DNA from: Spirosoma sp. SC4-14
GTDB taxonomy: Bacteria; Bacteroidota; Bacteroidia; Cytophagales; Spirosomataceae
Direction of reading: 5' to 3'
Assembly (NCBI RefSeq): GCF_037201965.1
Contig: NZ_CP147518.1
Location: 7,681,001-7,745,000, forward strand
Length of the DNA stretch: 64,000 nt
Positions 29,107-36,949 of the stretch are shown in pieces. Position 1 is the first letter of the stretch. Every line of letters begins with the position of its first letter. Below the pieces are notes generated by a model. The model saw only the letters and a list, made by a program, of their open reading frames with translations, searched no databases and had not been told where the DNA came from. The position numbers were made by a program, and so were the translations under genes.

Positions 29107-29114
29107 TATTTTTG
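29107..29114 (+). promoter_or_regulatory. -7 box for tRNA-Pro and probably the trp operon
   Basis: TATTTTTG is a perfect TAnnTTTG. It ends 10 bases before the first base of tRNA-Pro. No other TAnnTTTG box lies between here and trpE (29411) on this strand, so it is the best candidate to drive the tRNA, the Trp leader and the trp genes. Confidence 0.6.
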
Positions 29115-29124
29115 TGCCCTCAAA

Positions 29125-29201
29125 CGGGGTGTAGCGCAGCCTGGTAGCGCGCTACGTTCGGGACGTAGAGGTCGTGGGTTCGAATCCCGCCACCCCGACC
29201 A
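29125..29201 (+). tRNA. tRNA-Pro (anticodon CGG), CCA encoded
   Basis: This 77-nt tRNA folds perfectly. The acceptor stem is CGGGGTG with CACCCCG, followed by discriminator A and genomic CCA. The anticodon stem CTACG/CGTAG encloses the seven-base loop TTCGGGA, giving anticodon CGG, which reads the proline codon CCG. The T-arm contains GGTTCGAATCC. The trp leader ORF starts 23 bases downstream without an intervening terminator, so 3' processing from a longer transcript is expected. Confidence 0.95.
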
Positions 29202-29224: not shown

Positions 29225-29281
29225 ATGAATAATAAGGTTAACAACATGATTTGGTGGTGGCACTCTTCTCATTGGGGATGA
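29225..29281 (+). CDS. trpL: Trp operon leader peptide (MNNKVNNMIWWWHSSHWG)
   Basis: This is an 18-codon ORF with start ATG at 29225 and stop TGA at 29279-29281. It has three consecutive Trp codons (29252-29260) and a fourth at 29273. Trp is normally the rarest residue, so four in 18, placed upstream of trpE and immediately before an alternative hairpin system, is the hallmark of a ribosome-mediated attenuator. The peptide itself probably has no function; its translation speed reports the level of charged tRNA-Trp. There is no Shine-Dalgarno sequence, only an A-rich stretch, which is usual in this phylum. An internal ATG at 29246 could serve as an alternative start and would keep all four Trp codons. 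Confidence 0.85.
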   Translation: MNNKVNNMIWWWHSSHWG

Positions 29282-29355
29282 GGGTTGCCGCTATTGTTGT
29301 TCACCAACAAATTTCACAAAGGCTCACCGTCATCCCGGTGAGCCTTCTTTTTTTC
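29259..29355 (+). promoter_or_regulatory. Trp attenuator: alternative antiterminator and terminator hairpins
   Basis: Region 1 (GGC at 29259-29261 and CTCAT at 29268-29272) can pair with region 2 (ATGAG, GCC). Region 2 (29275-29289) can instead pair with region 3 (29321-29336). GGGATGA pairs with TCATCCC and GGT with ACC, with two more terminal pairs beyond a small mismatch; this is the antiterminator. Region 3 is also the 5' arm of the terminator (29319-29346), so the two folds exclude each other. A ribosome stalled at the Trp triplet covers region 1 and leaves region 2 free to antiterminate. A ribosome at the leader stop codon, which lies inside region 2, masks it and lets the terminator form. 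Confidence 0.82.
29319..29355 (+). terminator. Attenuator terminator ahead of trpE
   Basis: This is a perfect 11-bp stem, AAGGCTCACCG (29319-29329) with CGGTGAGCCTT (29336-29346), with a six-base loop. A T-rich run to 29355 follows. It lies 55 bases before the trpE ATG and has no internal promoter after it, so trp transcription must pass through it. Confidence 0.92.
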
Positions 29356-29410: not shown

Positions 29411-30862
29411 ATGAGTACTACTCTCAAAACACCCACTACCTATCGGATCGTCAGCAAGCATAAGCGGATGCTGGCCGATATTATCACGCCGGTTAGTATT
29501 TACCTTCGTATCCGCGACCGGTTTCTCAATAGCATCCTGCTCGAAAGCTCCGACTATCATGGCAACGAAAACAGTTTTTCGTACATCGCCTTCGATCCGG
29601 TTGCCAGCTTCTCCTACGACGGCGGTCTGCTAACCATTAAAATGCCGGACGAAGCAGAACAAACGCACGAAATGACCGAAAGTCGCGATATGCTCGATGC
29701 GCTTCAACGGTTTAAGGATAGTTTTCAGCACGAGAAATCGCCATTCCCATTCATTAGCAACGGCCTGTTTGGCTACTTTGGCTATCCGGCTGTTCAGAGC
29801 TTTGAAGATATTACTCTTCATGCACCTATACCGGCCGAAAATCAGATTCCGGCGGCCGTTTTCATGGTATATCGATACGTACTGGCCATTAATCACTTCA
29901 AGGATGAGCTGTATCTGTTCGAACATAGCTACCTCCGTAATGGCGACGCCGAACATACTGACCCGGAGGGTCGAATCGATTATATCAGTGATTTAATTAC
30001 GGGCCGCAACTACCCAACTTATTCATTCAATACAGCCGGGCCAGAACAATCGAATTTCACCGACGATCAATTCAGGGCAGTTATCCAGAAAGGAAAAGAC
30101 CACTGCCAGCGGGGCGATGTATTCCAGATCGTTTTGTCGCGCCGGTTTTCGACCCCGTTTATTGGCGACGAATTTAATGTATATCGGGCCTTACGGTCGC
30201 TGAATCCCTCTCCTTACTTGTTCTACTTCGACTACGGCAACTATAAACTCTTCGGTTCATCGCCCGAATCGCAGATTGTTGTTAAAGATCGAAAAGCCAC
30301 CATCTATCCCATTGCCGGAACCTTCCGGCGCACAGGCGATGACGTTCACGATGCAGAGCTGGCCCAGAAACTTTACGACGATCCTAAAGAATCGGCCGAA
30401 CACGTAATGCTGGTCGACCTGGCCCGTAACGACCTGAGTCGCAACTGCGATGTGGTGAAAGTGGAAACCTTTAAAGAGGTTCAATATTATTCACACGTCA
30501 TTCATCTGGTATCTAAAGTGGTTGGCAACCTGACCGAATCGGCCGATCCGCTACAAATTGTGGCCGAAACGTTCCCGGCCGGAACGCTGTCGGGTGCTCC
30601 CAAACATATGGCTATGCAATTGATTGATCGTTATGAAAGCATCAGCCGCAGTTTCTACTCAGGCAGCATTGGGTATATGGGTTTCGACGGCGAGTTTAAC
30701 CATGCCATCATGATCCGTACGTTCATGAGTAAAGACAATACACTCTACTATCAGGCGGGTGCGGGCATTGTTGCCAAGTCGGTAGTCGAAAGCGAATTGC
30801 AGGAAGTACACAACAAACTGGCTGCTCTTCGGACAGCTATCGAACAGGCGAAAACTATTTAA
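29411..30862 (+). CDS. trpE: Anthranilate synthase component I
   Basis: This 483-residue chorismate-binding enzyme makes anthranilate from chorismate and ammonia or glutamine, with TrpG as glutaminase. The N-terminal feedback site motif LLES (residues 43-46), with the SFSYIAFDP segment, binds tryptophan, so allosteric inhibition is expected in addition to attenuation. The catalytic domain carries GDVFQIVLSRRFS, PSPYLFYFDYG, SPESQIVVKDR, PIAGTFRR, HVMLVDLARND and PAGTLSGAPK, all strongly conserved. It starts at ATG 29411, 55 bases after the attenuator terminator. TrpG is encoded 82 bases downstream, with a palindrome between them. Confidence 0.97.
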   Translation: MSTTLKTPTTYRIVSKHKRMLADIITPVSIYLRIRDRFLNSILLESSDYHGNENSFSYIAFDPVASFSYDGGLLTIKMPDEAEQTHEMTESRDMLDALQRFKDSFQHEKSPFPFISNGLFGYFGYPAVQSFEDITLHAPIPAENQIPAAVFMVYRYVLAINHFKDELYLFEHSYLRNGDAEHTDPEGRIDYISDLITGRNYPTYSFNTAGPEQSNFTDDQFRAVIQKGKDHCQRGDVFQIVLSRRFSTPFIGDEFNVYRALRSLNPSPYLFYFDYGNYKLFGSSPESQIVVKDRKATIYPIAGTFRRTGDDVHDAELAQKLYDDPKESAEHVMLVDLARNDLSRNCDVVKVETFKEVQYYSHVIHLVSKVVGNLTESADPLQIVAETFPAGTLSGAPKHMAMQLIDRYESISRSFYSGSIGYMGFDGEFNHAIMIRTFMSKDNTLYYQAGAGIVAKSVVESELQEVHNKLAALRTAIEQAKTI

Positions 30863-30865
30863 TGC

Positions 30866-30923
30866 GTGAAGAATAACAGGGTGATTGCAAACTATTTTAT
30901 ACTCTTCACTTTTCATTCTTCAC
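30866..30923. repeat. Inverted repeat between trpE and trpG
   Basis: GTGAAGAAT (30866-30874) pairs perfectly with ATTCTTCAC (30915-30923) across a 40-base AT-rich loop. There is no T-run, so termination is not indicated. Confidence 0.55.
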
Positions 30924-30944
30924 TATCAACTCTCCTTTCAGATT

Positions 30945-31511
30945 ATGAAACTTTTAGTCTTAGATAATTACGATTCCTTTACCTACAACCTGGTTTATAT
31001 TCTGCGGGAGTTGGGAAATCGGCCCGATGTAATTCGGAACAACAAGATTGCACTGGATGCTGTCAGCCAATACGACAAAATTATGCTTTCGCCGGGGCCG
31101 GGTATCCCATCTGAGGCTGGTATTATGCAGGATCTCATTACTGAATATGGCCCAACCAAAAGCATTCTGGGTATTTGCCTCGGTCATCAGGGAATTGGCG
31201 AAGCCTATGGTGCCACACTCGAAAACCTGGGCGATGTGCTCCATGGCGTTGCGCACCGGGCCATGGTTACAGATCGCTCTGAGCGGCTTTTCAACAACAT
31301 TCCTGATGAGCTGACCGTTGGGCGCTATCACTCGTGGACGGTAGTACCTGAGTCGATACCCAGTGAGTTGCGGACTACGGCCGTAGACGAACATGGACGC
31401 GTAATGGGTTTGGCACATATTCGCTACGATGTTCGTGGGTTACAGTTTCACCCCGAATCAGTATTGACCGAAAACGGTGTGAAAATGATTCAGAACTGGC
31501 TATCTCTGTAG
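30945..31511 (+). CDS. trpG: Anthranilate synthase component II (glutamine amidotransferase)
   Basis: This 188-residue class-I glutaminase supplies ammonia to TrpE. The nucleophile Cys78 is in GICLGHQGIGEAYG, and the His-Glu pair is in LQFHPESVLTENG. The N-terminus MKLLVLDNYDSFTYNLV and the oxyanion-type SPGPGIPSEAG are family signatures. I start at ATG 30945; an upstream in-frame ATG at 30885 would translate the intergenic palindrome. It could also serve PabB for folate synthesis if no separate pabA exists, which cannot be judged here. Its TAG stop lies inside the hairpin that separates it from trpD. Confidence 0.96.
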   Translation: MKLLVLDNYDSFTYNLVYILRELGNRPDVIRNNKIALDAVSQYDKIMLSPGPGIPSEAGIMQDLITEYGPTKSILGICLGHQGIGEAYGATLENLGDVLHGVAHRAMVTDRSERLFNNIPDELTVGRYHSWTVVPESIPSELRTTAVDEHGRVMGLAHIRYDVRGLQFHPESVLTENGVKMIQNWLSL

Positions 31512-31533
31512 AGACTCCTCTTTGCGTCTCTAC
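31508..31533. repeat. Hairpin repeat GTAGAGAC/GTCTCTAC between trpG and trpD
   Basis: The 8-bp perfect arms GTAGAGAC (31508-31515) and GTCTCTAC (31526-31533) enclose a 10-base loop. The trpG stop codon is inside the 5' arm. This TGTAGAGACGC-type hairpin resembles a common interspersed repeat of Cytophagales and cyanobacteria. There is no T-tract. Confidence 0.7.
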
Positions 31534-31548
31534 ACAAATCAAATAACG

Positions 31549-32535
31549 ATGAAAGCTATTTTAAACCACTTATTTGAGTACAAATTCCTGACCAAAGACC
31601 AGGCTCGACAAGTGCTGCTGGGCATTGGTCGGGGCGAATATAACGCAGCGCAAATTGCGTCGTTTCTAACCGTTTATATGATGCGAAGCCTTCGGCTCGA
31701 AGAACTCGAAGGCTTTCGGGATGCGATGCTTGAGCTTTGCCTGCCGGTCGATCTGGCGGCCTATGACCCAATGGATTTATGTGGCACCGGCGGTGACGGT
31801 AAAGACACATTTAACATTTCGACACTGTCGTCATTTGTGGTTGCGGGAGCAGGTCAATGCGTTGCCAAGCATGGCAATCATGGCGTATCGTCGCTGGTAG
31901 GCTCATCGACCGTGATGGAACGATTGGGCTATAAATTTACCAACGATGTAGGCGAATTACAGCGCAAGATGGAAACCGCCGGCATTTGCTTTCTACATGC
32001 TCCGTTGTTTCACCCAGCCATGAAAAACGTAGCCCCCATTCGCAAAGACCTCGGCGTAAAGACATTTTTCAATGTACTTGGCCCCATGATTAACCCCGCA
32101 AAGCCTCAAAAACAGCTTGTTGGCGTGTTTAACCTTGAATTAGCCCGATTATATGCGTATCTTTATCAGCAAACTGATAAACGGTTCATGATCCTGCACG
32201 CGCTGGACGGTTACGACGAGATTTCGTTAACGGGTGCTTTTAAAGTGATCAGTAATGAAACCGAACAGATTCTGGAACCGGAACAACTAGGGTTGAACAC
32301 ACTATCGCCCGAATTGCTGGCAGGTGGGCATACTCTTGACGAATCGGCTCAGATCTTTATGAACGTACTCAACGATGAAGCCACATCGGCTCAGAAACAA
32401 GCTGTTCTGGCCAATTCGGCAATGGCTTTGCTGGCAGCAGGTAAAGCAACAATGCGTGAAGATGCGGTTGCGATGGCCCGCGAATCGCTCGAAAGTAAAC
32501 GCGCACTAGCCAGTTTTAAGAAGTTGATTAATTAG
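31549..32535 (+). CDS. trpD: Anthranilate phosphoribosyltransferase
   Basis: This 328-residue enzyme transfers phosphoribose from PRPP to anthranilate. The PRPP-binding motif CGTGGDGKDTFNIST is intact, as are KHGNHGVSSLVGSSTVMERLG and the conserved FFNVLGPMINPA. The second metal-binding motif appears as LDGYDEISLTG. The start is ATG 31549; the frame is open upstream to 31522 without family similarity. It is the third biosynthetic gene of the trp operon, separated from trpG by a hairpin and from trpC by a 100-base repeat-rich gap. Length and order match standard TrpD proteins that are not fused to TrpG. Confidence 0.97.
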   Translation: MKAILNHLFEYKFLTKDQARQVLLGIGRGEYNAAQIASFLTVYMMRSLRLEELEGFRDAMLELCLPVDLAAYDPMDLCGTGGDGKDTFNISTLSSFVVAGAGQCVAKHGNHGVSSLVGSSTVMERLGYKFTNDVGELQRKMETAGICFLHAPLFHPAMKNVAPIRKDLGVKTFFNVLGPMINPAKPQKQLVGVFNLELARLYAYLYQQTDKRFMILHALDGYDEISLTGAFKVISNETEQILEPEQLGLNTLSPELLAGGHTLDESAQIFMNVLNDEATSAQKQAVLANSAMALLAAGKATMREDAVAMARESLESKRALASFKKLIN

Positions 32536-32635
32536 ACATAGTCATTCATGGTCATCCTTCGTCATTAGGTGTCGTAATTATTCCCTGAATACACTATTGA
32601 CCCAAAGAAATGACCCAATCTATGACGCGTAGCAA
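32536..32635. repeat. Imperfect palindromic gap between trpD and trpC
   Basis: The first half contains three GTCAT units in one orientation (near 32544, 32552 and 32561), and the second half contains ATGAC units in the opposite orientation, ending with the trpC start. It is an imperfect palindrome of the same GTCATT/AATGAC type seen at 4081-4121. It has no reading frame or promoter box. Confidence 0.45.
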
Positions 32636-33460
32636 ATGACAATTCTGGACGAAATTATTGCCCAAAAACGAATAGAAGTAGAGCAGCGAAAAGCAGCTAC
32701 ATCCCCATTAGCGCTGGAACAGATGCCCGATTTCAAACGGCAGCCTTTATCGGCGCGGGAAGCTATTCAGGATTTACGCTCAACAGGAATTATTGCCGAA
32801 TTCAAGCGTAAATCGCCCTCCAAAGGTATCATTAACGATCAGGCCGACGTAGCGACAACTACCCAGGGCTATGTACAGGCGGGTGCAGCCGTTTTGTCGG
32901 TATTAACCGATGAACCATTCTTTGGCGGTACACCAGCCGATTTACAAACCGCCCGGATAGCAAACCCGTCGACACCGATTCTGCGGAAAGACTTTATTGT
33001 CGATCAATATCAGTTGCTCGAAGCTAAAGCCTGGGGAGCCGATCTGGTTCTGCTGATTGCAGCCTGCCTGACTCCTGCTGAAGTCTCTATGCTTAGTCAA
33101 CAGGCGCAGGATATGGGCTTACAAGTGCTTCTCGAAGTTCATGATGAGGATGAACTCGACCGAAGCCTCACTCATTCGGTCGATCTGGTTGGGGTTAATA
33201 ACCGAAACCTAAAAACCTTTACGACCTCTATTGACACCTCACTTCGGTTAGTTGAACGGATTCCGGATACGTTTGCCAAAATAACGGAAAGCGGCCTGCG
33301 CGATGCTCAAACCATGTATTCTTTATTCCGCGCTGGCTTCGATGGGTTTCTCATTGGCGAAGCGTTCATGAAAACAGCCAATCCGGCCGCTGCGCTACAG
33401 TCGATAGTGGCTGATTATACTTCACATATGCCCACCTTTGCAAACTCGTTTACGTCATGA
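32636..33460 (+). CDS. trpC: Indole-3-glycerol phosphate synthase
   Basis: This 274-residue TIM-barrel enzyme closes the indole ring from CdRP. Conserved segments are ILDEIIAQKRIEVEQRK at the N-terminus, IIAEFKRKSPSKG carrying catalytic Glu and Lys residues, and LTDEPFFGG. PILRKDFIVDQYQ, LLEVHDEDELDR, VGVNNRNLKTF and ITESGLRD are also present. It is monofunctional, unlike the TrpC-TrpF fusion of enterobacteria. Its last four bases overlap the trpF start (ATGA), so translational coupling is expected. Confidence 0.97.
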   Translation: MTILDEIIAQKRIEVEQRKAATSPLALEQMPDFKRQPLSAREAIQDLRSTGIIAEFKRKSPSKGIINDQADVATTTQGYVQAGAAVLSVLTDEPFFGGTPADLQTARIANPSTPILRKDFIVDQYQLLEAKAWGADLVLLIAACLTPAEVSMLSQQAQDMGLQVLLEVHDEDELDRSLTHSVDLVGVNNRNLKTFTTSIDTSLRLVERIPDTFAKITESGLRDAQTMYSLFRAGFDGFLIGEAFMKTANPAAALQSIVADYTSHMPTFANSFTS

Positions 33461-34101
33461 AAATAAAAGTGTGTGGTCTGAGAGACGCTGAAAACCTGAA
33501 AGAGATTGCCGCTCTGGGCCCTGATTTTGTAGGATTTATTTTCTATGATCAGTCACCCCGGTTTGTCGGTGAAGAATTGAACGAAGAAGTAGTTAAGGCA
33601 TTACCCCGCTCCATTCGAAAAGTAGGTGTGTTTGTGAATGCCAGCCCGGACTACATTCTTCGAAATGTAAAAAAATACGATTTTCAGTATGTTCAGCTAC
33701 ATGGTAACGAAACGCCCGAGTATTGCCGAAGCTTACGCAACCGTGGAATAAGTCTGATCAAAGCGTTCCGCGTCGACGAAGGCTTCAACTTTTCGATGCT
33801 GAACAACTACAAAGCCCACTGCGATTTCTTTCTGTTCGATGCCAAAGGCGACCAGCCCGGTGGCAACGGCGTTACCTTCGACTGGAGCATTCTGAGCCGG
33901 TACGACAACGAAAAGCCATTTTTTATTAGTGGTGGTATCGGCCTTAACAACCTCGATCAACTCGACACCCTGAAAGGCATGAAACTATACGGCGTCGATG
34001 TAAACAGTCAGGTCGAAGTTTCGCCCGGCATCAAAGACGTGGCTAAAGTAAAAGAGCTGATCGACCGCGTTCGTCCGGTTGAAGAAGAGGAAACGGTGTA
34101 A
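33457..34101 (+). CDS. trpF: Phosphoribosylanthranilate isomerase
   Basis: This 214-residue TIM-barrel isomerase catalyses the Amadori rearrangement of PRA to CdRP. The catalytic Cys is in KVCGLRD at the N-terminus (Cys6), and the catalytic Asp is probably in FLFDAKGDQPGGNG. QLHGNE, FISGGIGLNN and VDVNSQVEVSPGIKD are family signatures. The start overlaps the trpC stop by four bases. Downstream, 61 bases separate it from a small antitoxin-like gene. That gene and its partner interrupt the operon before trpB, so trpB and trpA lie beyond this insertion. Confidence 0.96.
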   Translation: MKIKVCGLRDAENLKEIAALGPDFVGFIFYDQSPRFVGEELNEEVVKALPRSIRKVGVFVNASPDYILRNVKKYDFQYVQLHGNETPEYCRSLRNRGISLIKAFRVDEGFNFSMLNNYKAHCDFFLFDAKGDQPGGNGVTFDWSILSRYDNEKPFFISGGIGLNNLDQLDTLKGMKLYGVDVNSQVEVSPGIKDVAKVKELIDRVRPVEEEETV

Positions 34102-34162: not shown

Positions 34163-34381
34163 ATGGAAACGACGAAGACGACAGAAGACGAAATTCCGAG
34201 AATGAAAAGAGGGCAGTTGAATATTTATAAACCCAGTGATATAAAGCGTTGGGGAGTTGAAAGGTTTTTAGAGGCAACAACTGTACAGGAACCTTTCTTA
34301 CTCGAATTTCCTGAATTTACTGATGAAGAGAATAGACGAATGGATGAATTGTTAGCAGAAGGAGATAGAGGTGCAGTATGA
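34163..34381 (+). CDS. Antitoxin-like protein of a PIN-toxin pair
   Basis: This is a 72-residue acidic, probably partly disordered protein with a basic middle (MKRGQLNIYKPSDIKRWG) and an acidic C-terminal helix (TDEENRRMDELLAEGDRG). I do not recognise a DNA-binding fold. Its stop overlaps the start of the PIN-domain gene by four bases (ATGA), the usual arrangement of toxin-antitoxin pairs, so an antitoxin role is inferred from position and size. It lies inside the trp operon, between trpF and trpB. If the toxin is inactive, it may be a leftover. Confidence 0.6.
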   Translation: METTKTTEDEIPRMKRGQLNIYKPSDIKRWGVERFLEATTVQEPFLLEFPEFTDEENRRMDELLAEGDRGAV

Positions 34382-34770
34382 TTTATGACACAAACCTGCT
34401 AATTAGTCATATTCGTCAGAGAAGTCTACCGCCTATTTAAACGATCATCCCAATTATTGTAGTTGGTGAACTGGAAGCTTTTTCATTAAAAGCCGATTGG
34501 GGCGCACAGAAAATAGATTTCATGAGGTACTTGATAGACCGCTATCCAATTGCCGATATTGAGCCGGATATTATTCCTGTTTATGCAAAAATAGATGCCT
34601 TCAGTCAAGGGAAGCTAAAAACTGCACCGCTCAACTCCTCTGCCCGAAACATGGGCAAGAACGACATCTGGATCGCGGCAACCACCTTGTATTTAGATGT
34701 AGAACTCCACACAACCGACAACGACTTCGATCATCTCCCCCTGTTGGGACTCCGCTTAGTAAAGCACTGA
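34378..34770 (+). pseudogene. VapC-like PIN-domain toxin, interrupted by an in-frame stop
   Basis: Reading from the ATG at 34378, the frame encodes a PIN-domain ribonuclease but meets TAA at 34438-34440, codon 21. Beyond it the same frame continues to 34770 with all expected acidic residues: Asp in IYDTN before the stop, Glu in VVGELEAF, Asp in GKNDIWIAA and Asp in TTDNDF after it. Only one change would restore a full 130-residue protein, so inactivation is recent, or the base call is wrong. A second start, ATG at 34522, could give an N-terminally shortened product lacking the first two acidic residues. It overlaps the antitoxin gene and ends 5 bases before trpB. Confidence 0.75.
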
Positions 34771-34775
34771 TTACC

Positions 34776-35975
34776 ATGCAAACCACTCTTGAACCAACAA
34801 CCTCGTTTGAGGTTTCCGATAAAGGCTTTTATGGCCATTTCGGCGGAGCTTTCATTCCCGAAATGCTCTATCCTAATGTTGAAGAACTCCGGCAGAACTA
34901 TCTCCAGATTATTGCCGACCCTTCCTTTCAGGCCGAATTCTGGCAATTGCTCGAAGACTACGTAGGGCGGCCAACTCCGCTATTTCTGGCAAAGCGACTG
35001 TCCGAAAAAATTGGTGCCACCATCTACCTTAAACGCGAAGACCTGTGTCATACGGGCGCGCATAAAGTCAACAATACGATTGGGCAAATTCTGGTAGCCC
35101 AGCGACTTGGTAAAAAACGGATTGTTGCCGAAACCGGTGCCGGTCAGCATGGTGTAGCAACGGCTACAGTTTGCGCCCTGATGGGCCTGGAGTGCATTGT
35201 GTATATGGGAAGCATCGACATGGAGCGCCAGAAGCCCAACGTCGACCGGATGCGAATGCTGGGCGCTACGGTGGTTCCGGCTACGTCGGGCAGCCAGACA
35301 CTTAAAGACGCCACCAACGAAGCTATGCGCCATTGGATCAACAATCCCGTCGACACGCATTATATTATTGGCTCGGTTGTGGGGCCTCATCCCTACCCCG
35401 ATATGGTTGCCCGATTCCAGTCGGTTATTTCAGAAGAAATCAAAAAGCAACTACTTGCTAAAACGGGTCGCCAAAACCCCGACTATGTGGTGGCCTGTGT
35501 GGGTGGAGGCAGTAATGCAGCTGGTACTTTTTTCCATTTTCTGAATGAGCCATCGGTTCGTCTGGTTGCGGCCGAAGCAGCAGGGCAAGGGGTATCGTCG
35601 GGCCACTCAGCGGCAACAACGGCACTCGGCAAGCCGGGCGTACTGCACGGTAGCCGGACCATTCTGATGCAAACCGAAGATGGGCAGGTTATTGAACCCT
35701 ACTCTATTTCGGCCGGGCTCGATTATCCGGGTATTGGTCCACTTCATGCCCATCTGTTCGATTCGGGCCGTGGCGAATTCTACGCTATCACTGACGACGA
35801 AGCCCTACAGGCTGGCTTTCAGTTAAGTAAACTCGAAGGCATTATTCCTGCGCTGGAATCGTCTCATGCGCTGGCAGCCTTGTCAAAAATGAATCTTAAG
35901 GCCGACGATGTGGTCGTCGTTTGTTTGTCCGGTCGTGGCGATAAAGATTTAGCAACCTATTCTAAGCATCTTTAG
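34776..35975 (+). CDS. trpB: Tryptophan synthase beta subunit
   Basis: This 399-residue PLP enzyme condenses indole with serine. The PLP lysine is Lys97 in the HTGAHKVNN motif, and the phosphate-binding GGGSNAAG loop is intact. [10 protein letters not shown], the [12 protein letters not shown] active-site segment with its catalytic glutamate, and [14 protein letters not shown] are further signatures. It pairs with TrpA in a channelled complex. It starts 5 bases after the broken PIN gene, so its translation may depend on ribosomes from upstream. It is separated from trpA by a 167-base palindromic repeat. Confidence 0.97.
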
Positions 35976-35980
35976 GCAAT

Positions 35981-36131
35981 GGTCAGTGGTTATTGGTCAG
36001 TTGTCTGCGAGGAATATTTATTGTCCACAGAGACACAGAGGGCACAGAGTTTTTATGCGTATGTAAGTTTCCTCTGTGTCCCATTACCAATGGCTAATGA
36101 CCTATTAACCAATAACTATTGACCACTGACC
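35981..36131. repeat. Nested palindromic repeat between trpB and trpA
   Basis: The outer arms GGTCAGTGGT (35981-35990) and ACCACTGACC (36122-36131) are perfect. The inner arms GACACAGAGG (36032-36041) and CCTCTGTGTC (36071-36080) are also perfect. The inner CACAGAG/CTCTGTG sequence resembles a widespread interspersed repeat. No reading frame, T-tract or TAnnTTTG box is visible. Confidence 0.75.
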
Positions 36132-36142
36132 AACATACAGAT

Positions 36143-36949
36143 ATGATACAAACATTAACCCAAAACCGAATTACCGACCTGTTTGCTCATAAAAGCAACC
36201 GGTTATTAAATGTATATTTTACCGCTGGCTTTCCTGAACTCGACGATACAGTAACCGTTCTGCGCGGCTTGCAGCAGGCGGGTGTCGATCTGGTCGAAAT
36301 TGGCATGCCTTACTCTGACCCCGTTGCCGATGGTGAAACTATTCAGCAGAGCAACAACAAGGCACTCGAAAATGGGATGTCATTGAAAAAGTTGTTTGCA
36401 CAACTTGAAGGCTGCCGCCAGAACCAATCTGGCGGTCCGATTACTGTGCCGATTCTCCTGATGGGATACATCAATCCTATTTTGCAGTATGGTGTCGAAA
36501 ATTTCTGTAAAAAATGTCAGGAAGTGGGTGTCGATGGGGTTATCCTGCCCGACCTACCACTCGATCTCTATTTGGCAGACTACGCCCAGACGTTCCGGGA
36601 GTATGGCATTCTGAATGTGAATCTGATTACTCCCCAAACATCGGAGAGCCGGATTCGGCATATCGATCAGGAATCGGATGGATTCATTTACATGGTGTCT
36701 TCGGCCAGTATTACTGGTTCGCAAAAAGGAATCAGCGATTCGATGAAAGCCTACTTTGAGCGGATTCAGGCCATGAATCTGCGCAATCCCCGGCTGATTG
36801 GATTTGGCATCAATAATCAGGAAACCTTCGATACGGCCAGCCAATATGCCAATGGCGCTATTGTTGGTAGTGCATTTATCCGGCATTTACAGGAAAAAGG
36901 CACATCAGCCGAGAGCATCCGGTCGTTTGTGCAGACGATTCGCGCTTAG
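36143..36949 (+). CDS. trpA: Tryptophan synthase alpha subunit
   Basis: This 268-residue TIM-barrel enzyme cleaves indole-3-glycerol phosphate. The catalytic residues are Glu52 and Asp63 in the VEIGMPYSDPVADG motif. VYFTAGFPELDD, GVDGVILPDLPLD and a glycine-rich phosphate-binding GFGIN segment are also present. I use the ATG at 36143; the TTG at 36119 would translate part of the palindrome. It ends the trp genes. The stop is followed only 5 bases later by the -7 box of hisIE, so hisIE has its own start of transcription. Confidence 0.96.
   Translation: MIQTLTQNRITDLFAHKSNRLLNVYFTAGFPELDDTVTVLRGLQQAGVDLVEIGMPYSDPVADGETIQQSNNKALENGMSLKKLFAQLEGCRQNQSGGPITVPILLMGYINPILQYGVENFCKKCQEVGVDGVILPDLPLDLYLADYAQTFREYGILNVNLITPQTSESRIRHIDQESDGFIYMVSSASITGSQKGISDSMKAYFERIQAMNLRNPRLIGFGINNQETFDTASQYANGAIVGSAFIRHLQEKGTSAESIRSFVQTIRA

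Follow-up and report, generated by a model that had tools for sequence, protein, structure and literature searches.

In Spirosoma sp. SC4-14, the genes for tryptophan biosynthesis are preceded by a short ORF with three consecutive Trp codons and by a terminator-like hairpin, an arrangement that raises two questions: is transcription of the operon controlled by a ribosome that reads these codons, and from which promoter does the leader transcript come? Here, we address both in the window, that is the whole stretch of 64,000 nucleotides that was analysed from this genome of 8.1 Mb, and in the corresponding loci of related bacteria. A sequence-only reading of the window had described a complete attenuator upstream of trpE, and every coordinate of it that was tested, namely the leader ORF, regions 2 and 3 and the terminator, holds.

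The Leader and the Attenuator

From 5' to 3', the locus consists of a TAnnTTTG motif, a tRNA-Pro(CGG) gene, the leader ORF, the attenuator, trpE, the remaining trp genes in the order trpG, D, C, F, B and A, and a hisIE-like gene. The features are as follows, with the evidence in brackets.

29107 to 29114, + strand: TAnnTTTG motif TATTTTTG, presumed to be the promoter for tRNA-Pro, leader and trp operon (sequence, relatives)
29125 to 29201, + strand: tRNA-Pro, anticodon CGG (Rfam tRNA match, tRNA call, genome comparison)
29225 to 29281, + strand: leader peptide ORF of 18 codons, MNNKVNNMIWWWHSSHWG (ORF list, relatives)
29252 to 29261, + strand: Trp codons 10 to 12, forming the 5' arm of region 1, with its partner at 29284 to 29293 (predicted fold, leader comparison)
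29275 to 29289, + strand: region 2, 5' strand of the antiterminator (folds, covariation, exchange test)
29294 to 29310, + strand: small hairpin within the antiterminator loop, 29294-29299 with 29305-29310 (predicted folds)
29319 to 29346, + strand: terminator hairpin of regions 3 and 4, 11 pairs, then C and seven T at 29348-29354 (folds, covariation)
29321 to 29336, + strand: region 3, common to antiterminator and terminator (folds, covariation of both helices)
29411 to 30862, + strand: trpE, anthranilate synthase component I (translation, Pfam)
30885 to 34101, + strand: trpG, trpD, trpC and trpF (translation, Pfam)
34776 to 36949, + strand: trpB and trpA (translation, Pfam)

The leader stop codon, UGA at 29279-29281, falls within region 2, as the sequence-only reading had it, and the Trp triplet (29252-29260), which was expected in or just before region 1, is itself the 5' arm of that region. 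The leader was also described as carrying a fourth Trp codon; this codon is present (codon 17, 29273-29275) but is not conserved, Trp standing there in 5 of 35 genus loci. For this reason, and because a ribosome stalled at codon 17 would hide region 2, it probably has no part in sensing. The combination is rare by chance: short ORFs with three tandem Trp codons and a terminator at most 110 nt downstream occur once in the window, in comparison with a mean of 0 in 40 order-2 Markov windows.

These elements are very probably a ribosome-mediated transcription attenuator of trpEGDCFBA. In the mechanism that we propose, RNA polymerase would start at the TAnnTTTG motif and transcribe the tRNA-Pro gene, followed by the leader. 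With an ample supply of charged tRNA-Trp, the ribosome would reach the UGA and cover region 2, so that the 3:4 terminator could form; when charged tRNA-Trp is short, the ribosome would stall on codons 10 to 12 and break the 1:2 helix, and region 2, freed in this way, would pair with region 3 and let transcription enter trpE. We infer the translation of the leader, the stalling, the response to Trp and the transcription from this promoter; sensing of charged tRNA-Trp would best explain why the Trp run is invariant and occupies a fixed place relative to region 2.

Predicted Folds and Ribosome Position

In the predicted fold without a ribosome, region 1 (29252-29261) pairs with 29284-29293 and the terminator forms, with –50.7 kcal/mol for 29225-29352 (z –5.4) and –20.0 kcal/mol for the terminator stretch 29317-29352 (z –6.5). 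When Trp codon 10, 11 or 12 is placed in the A site, assuming a ribosome margin of 13 nt, the nascent RNA up to 29336 is predicted to adopt the 2:3 antiterminator at –23.9 kcal/mol, in which 29275-29281 pairs with 29330-29336, 29283-29285 with 29326-29328 and 29287-29289 with 29321-29323. The full-length minimum keeps this antiterminator with codon 10 or 11 in the A site and becomes the terminator with codon 12, so that antitermination at this last codon would need co-transcriptional timing. A ribosome with codon 17 or the stop codon in its A site covers region 2, and the predicted minimum is then the terminator. Folding in both states, one of the checks suggested with the sequence-only reading, therefore gives the proposed 2:3 pairing in the stalled state and the terminator for a ribosome at the stop.

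The same behaviour is predicted throughout the family, in which regions 2 and 3 of 90 loci form a mean of 13.5 pairs in the stalled state, 1.7 with the ribosome at the stop and 7.2 when stalled with a shuffled spacer. At least seven pairs are formed in 90/90 stalled loci and in 8/90 with the ribosome at the stop; this threshold lies near the shuffled mean, and it is thus the difference in means, more than these counts, that constitutes real evidence.

Conservation in Relatives and Covariation

TrpE was found in all 36 genus genomes, and a leader with a terminator precedes trpE in 36/36 of these loci. Of the 160 family genomes outside the genus in which TrpE was matched, 57 were sampled, from 26 other genera (seven further genera with a TrpE match, g9, g14, g21, g24, g28, g30 and g34, lie outside the sample): leader and terminator are present in 56/57 loci, or in 53/57 by a stricter script, which missed three leaders located beyond the 500 nt tested, so that L087 is the only one of the 57 with no leader followed by a terminator. 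Leader and terminator were also detected in 28 of 39 loci from other families of the order (39 of 104 TrpE loci taken) and, beyond the order, in 18 of the 20 loci taken from 104, whereas shuffled versions of the same upstream regions were positive in 3 of 4560 cases. Eleven of the 39 order loci have no leader by the script criterion, among them L124, for which the upstream sequence spans only about 105 nt. The Trp run comprises three codons in 84 of 90 family loci and two in the other six, and the leader ends with TGA in 65, TAG in 13 and TAA in 12. L030 was left out of the exchange test, the alignment, the leader comparison and the fold survey: the script took an overlapping ORF with two Trp codons, although a WWW leader is present. 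A short ORF with tandem Trp codons thus stands upstream of a Trp biosynthesis gene, as a ribosome-mediated Trp attenuator requires.

An RNA model built from the leaders gives one strong match in each of the 36 genus genomes, adjoining the TrpE match, with scores of 92-116 bits at the trp locus and 34.6 bits for the next best match; 8 of the 36 loci are in the model by construction, and 89 first-look candidates per genome were scored. On reading, five weaker matches considered as second attenuators in the genus look like ordinary terminators, and none of them qualified. One of the five, L245, has an ORF with two tandem Trp codons and no ORF of more than 100 aa downstream in the stretch examined. 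One genome (G025) has a second TrpE-like match.

Both helices appear to be under selection. The alignment A1 holds 51 family leaders out of 59 references, themselves chosen from 90 loci; L049, L056, L058, L070, L071, L073, L080 and L085 were left out by choice. In it, 86.5% of the antiterminator cells are paired and 35 are doubly changed, in comparison with 9.6 in shuffles, with two-sided changes in 6 of 9 pairs, a level reached by 1 of 500 shuffles. For the terminator the corresponding values are 99.8% and 110 versus 34.2, with two-sided changes in 8 of 11 pairs (10 of 500 shuffles as high). An exchange from A-U to U-A at columns 68/142, found in 11 sequences, sits in the terminator loop and is thus explained by the 2:3 pairing and not by the terminator stem. 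Two antiterminator pairs are often unpaired (15 of 50 and 23 of 51 cells), in part because Spirosoma pairs in another register there.

When region 3, cut at a loop placed by script, was exchanged among 26 genera, the 2:3 pairing became weaker and none of 5000 permutations was as good as the own combination; this result is a sum, and 4 of the 26 genera (g7, g16, g27 and g29) show an own pairing that does not exceed the average for the others. In g13, 32 of 200 shuffles were as good. Repeated over 22 groups (21 other families and one more genus of the family), the test again gave 0 of 5000 permutations as good, with little 2:3 pairing in f34 and f8 and with the mis-picked terminator of L145 left in. 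Covariation and exchange tests thus agree on a terminator and an antiterminator that are mutually exclusive, share region 3 and are both selected. The conservation in relatives that had been proposed as a check is found, both for the leader ORF and for the pairings.

The leader comparison also bears on the possibility that, beyond the sensing of Trp codons, the amino-acid sequence of the peptide has an effect of its own, whether as an arrest peptide or by action in trans. The H and S that follow the WWW are each kept in 35 of 35 genus loci, and a Trp leader peptide acting in trans is described for Sinorhizobium (PMC7298713). Beyond the genus, however, the Trp run is the only constant part and the neighbouring residues vary, and the bases conserved within the genus lie in the predicted pairing region, so that a constraint on the RNA could suffice to conserve H and S. 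We regard this reading as improbable.

A tRNA-Pro Gene Within the Presumed Leader Transcript

The sequence-only reading, right about the parts of the attenuator, did not mention the tRNA-Pro gene located 5' of the leader. A similarity search of the own genome with this gene gave nine places, and of the eight examined three are tRNA-Pro, with the anticodons CGG, UGG and GGG; the gene upstream of the leader is therefore the only CGG one detected. Among 91 family loci, an intact tRNA-Pro lies between motif and leader in 41, a relic in 4 and none in 46. Intact genes occur in Spirosoma (g1, 27/36), g8 (Fibrella and Fibrivirga, 5/5), g16 (Larkinella, 4/4), g18 (Fibrisoma, 2/2), g3 (Rudanella, 2/3) and g26 (1/2). 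The tRNAs of L011, L018, L020, L043, L044 and L047 are longer by about 16 bases; as ARAGORN calls them tRNA-Pro, they were counted as intact, and the nearly intact one of L006 as a relic.

In each of the 41 loci where the tRNA gene is intact, a TAnnTTTG motif precedes it, with its first base 12-20 nt upstream, and in 39 of these loci there is no further such motif between the tRNA and the leader ATG, a second one being present in L021 and L032. The six of 36 Spirosoma loci without a recognisable tRNA retain both the motif and the attenuator, so the switch does not require the tRNA. In 10 of the 91 family loci the first base of the motif is 12 nt upstream of the leader ATG, a distance at which the leader mRNA would be nearly leaderless if the start spacing usual in Bacteroidetes holds; bacteria of this phylum largely initiate translation without Shine-Dalgarno sequences. 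An independent promoter between 29350 and 29411 would count against the attenuator, and neither a scan for sigma-70-like sites on the + strand nor inspection by eye for TAnnTTTG found one in this interval.

Taken together, we consider it probable, with some reserve, that in Spirosoma and its kin the trp operon is expressed by regulated readthrough of a tRNA-Pro(CGG) unit made of promoter, tRNA and Trp attenuator. The hairpin might instead be merely the terminator of the tRNA-Pro gene and the ORF incidental: in the window the gene does lie 5' of the hairpin with no other promoter motif in between. Yet the Trp leader, region 2 and the hairpin are all retained in genera that have no tRNA at this place, and region 2 covaries with the terminator loop. 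As a sole explanation this is contradicted by the tRNA-less relatives and is very improbable; the hairpin may serve in both roles.

The region upstream of the leader is variable in other respects. By eye, L009, L010, L021, L032, L033, L035, L037 and L040 carry another tRNA-Pro-like copy, degenerate and placed between the intact gene and the leader, and in the six enlarged tRNAs the additional bases are GC-rich and located before the T loop; the site appears to show repeated duplication and decay of tRNA-Pro. Furthermore, in L043, L050, L051, L057 and L065 the trp leader is preceded, at a distance of a few hundred bases, by a 5S rRNA gene. These loci belong to g3, g16, g26, g32 and g4 (with Rudanella, Larkinella and Dyadobacter among g3, g16 and g32); this arrangement may explain why trpE stands at contig ends in many draft genomes.

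Relation to Known Trp Leaders

Regulation by a protein- or tRNA-binding leader of the TRAP, T-box or riboswitch type, for which we found no supporting point, is scarcely credible, as only the tRNA reached the Rfam threshold in the window (no T-box match in the leader, other weak matches below their gathering scores) and an invariant Trp run has no known role in such mechanisms.

The attenuator shares with the E. coli trp leader (RF00513, Trp_leader) the tandem Trp codons, regions 1 to 4 and the choice between terminator and antiterminator, but scores 27.6 bits against a gathering threshold of 41. The E. coli leader has two tandem Trp codons and a stop just before region 2, whereas in the window three tandem Trp codons are found, the stop is inside region 2 and a tRNA gene lies upstream in the presumed leader transcript. 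Outside Proteobacteria, control by a Trp-dependent leader is described for Corynebacterium glutamicum and Streptomyces venezuelae, with experimental support cited in PMC4833913; the parallel drawn here is one of regulation type.

In Bacteroidetes, the motif Bacteroid-trp (RF01692) was judged cis-regulatory by Weinberg et al. (2010; PMC2864571) and noted before the trp operon of Flavobacterium psychrophilum (PMC6414381). It too is a Trp-codon leader before the trp operon, and the matching loci L139, L141 and L142 have WWW leaders with a UGA stop followed by a terminator. Its model ends just inside the terminator, and the leader in the window scores 28.2 bits against a gathering threshold of 49. 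None of 20 family loci reaches this threshold, while 3 of 20 mixed loci pass, all from f26, which contributes four of these 20 and which we infer to be Flavobacteriaceae. Among 296 phylum genomes, searched with stricter filters that can lose weak matches, RF01692 matches 29 (27 over threshold), 27 in f26, one in f25 and one in f59, and none in the order of the window; the single match in 14 control genomes is in Bacteroides ihuae. The sequence-only reading knew of no characterised example in Cytophagales, but a Bacteroidetes Trp leader had been catalogued in Rfam since 2010. The kind is therefore known and its reach under-called.

Our literature search, with most subscription papers outside its scope, found no experimentally tested Trp attenuator in Bacteroidetes. 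This phylum may be covered by earlier predictions, namely those of Vitreschak et al. 2004, whose abstract reportedly names Bacteroidetes, and of Lopatovskaya et al. 2010.

Neighbouring Genes

Two ORFs occupy 34163-34770, between trpF and trpB: a short one that has no Pfam match, and a PIN-domain-like one that is interrupted by an in-frame stop (34438-34440) and whose later piece weakly resembles PF01850 (E 9e-4, below the cut-off). The two look like a decayed toxin-antitoxin pair inside the operon. The hisIE-like gene (PF01502, PF01503; 36967-37590) begins 17 bases downstream of trpA, and its possible co-transcription with the operon would place a His step under Trp attenuation. Elsewhere in the same genome, upstream of hisG (L163), a short ORF, MISQRATVSPFRHRRYHHGC, with the residues HRRYHH, stands just after a TAnnTTTG motif and is a possible His leader; no T-run of five was found in the 500 nt examined there. 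A genome titled Flavobacterium sp. SUN052 (L187) has a TrpE 75% identical to that of the window, like the Spirosoma relatives of the window, and is possibly mislabelled.

Implications

The mechanism is ordinary and known, and it is well supported in silico in a lineage that current models leave unannotated, with one unusual arrangement, the tRNA-Pro gene. If tRNA and attenuator are one unit, the attenuator would double as the tRNA-Pro terminator and every attenuated transcript would be a tRNA-Pro precursor; the supply of this tRNA would be independent of Trp status while the trp genes switch, and tRNA processing would create the 5' end of the RNA from which the leader peptide would be translated. 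The locus would then be a clear instance of a single promoter and a single terminator apparently serving both a tRNA gene and an amino-acid attenuator. For the phylum, the results indicate that classic Trp attenuation is widespread, well beyond the 29 of 296 genomes reached by the Bacteroid-trp model.
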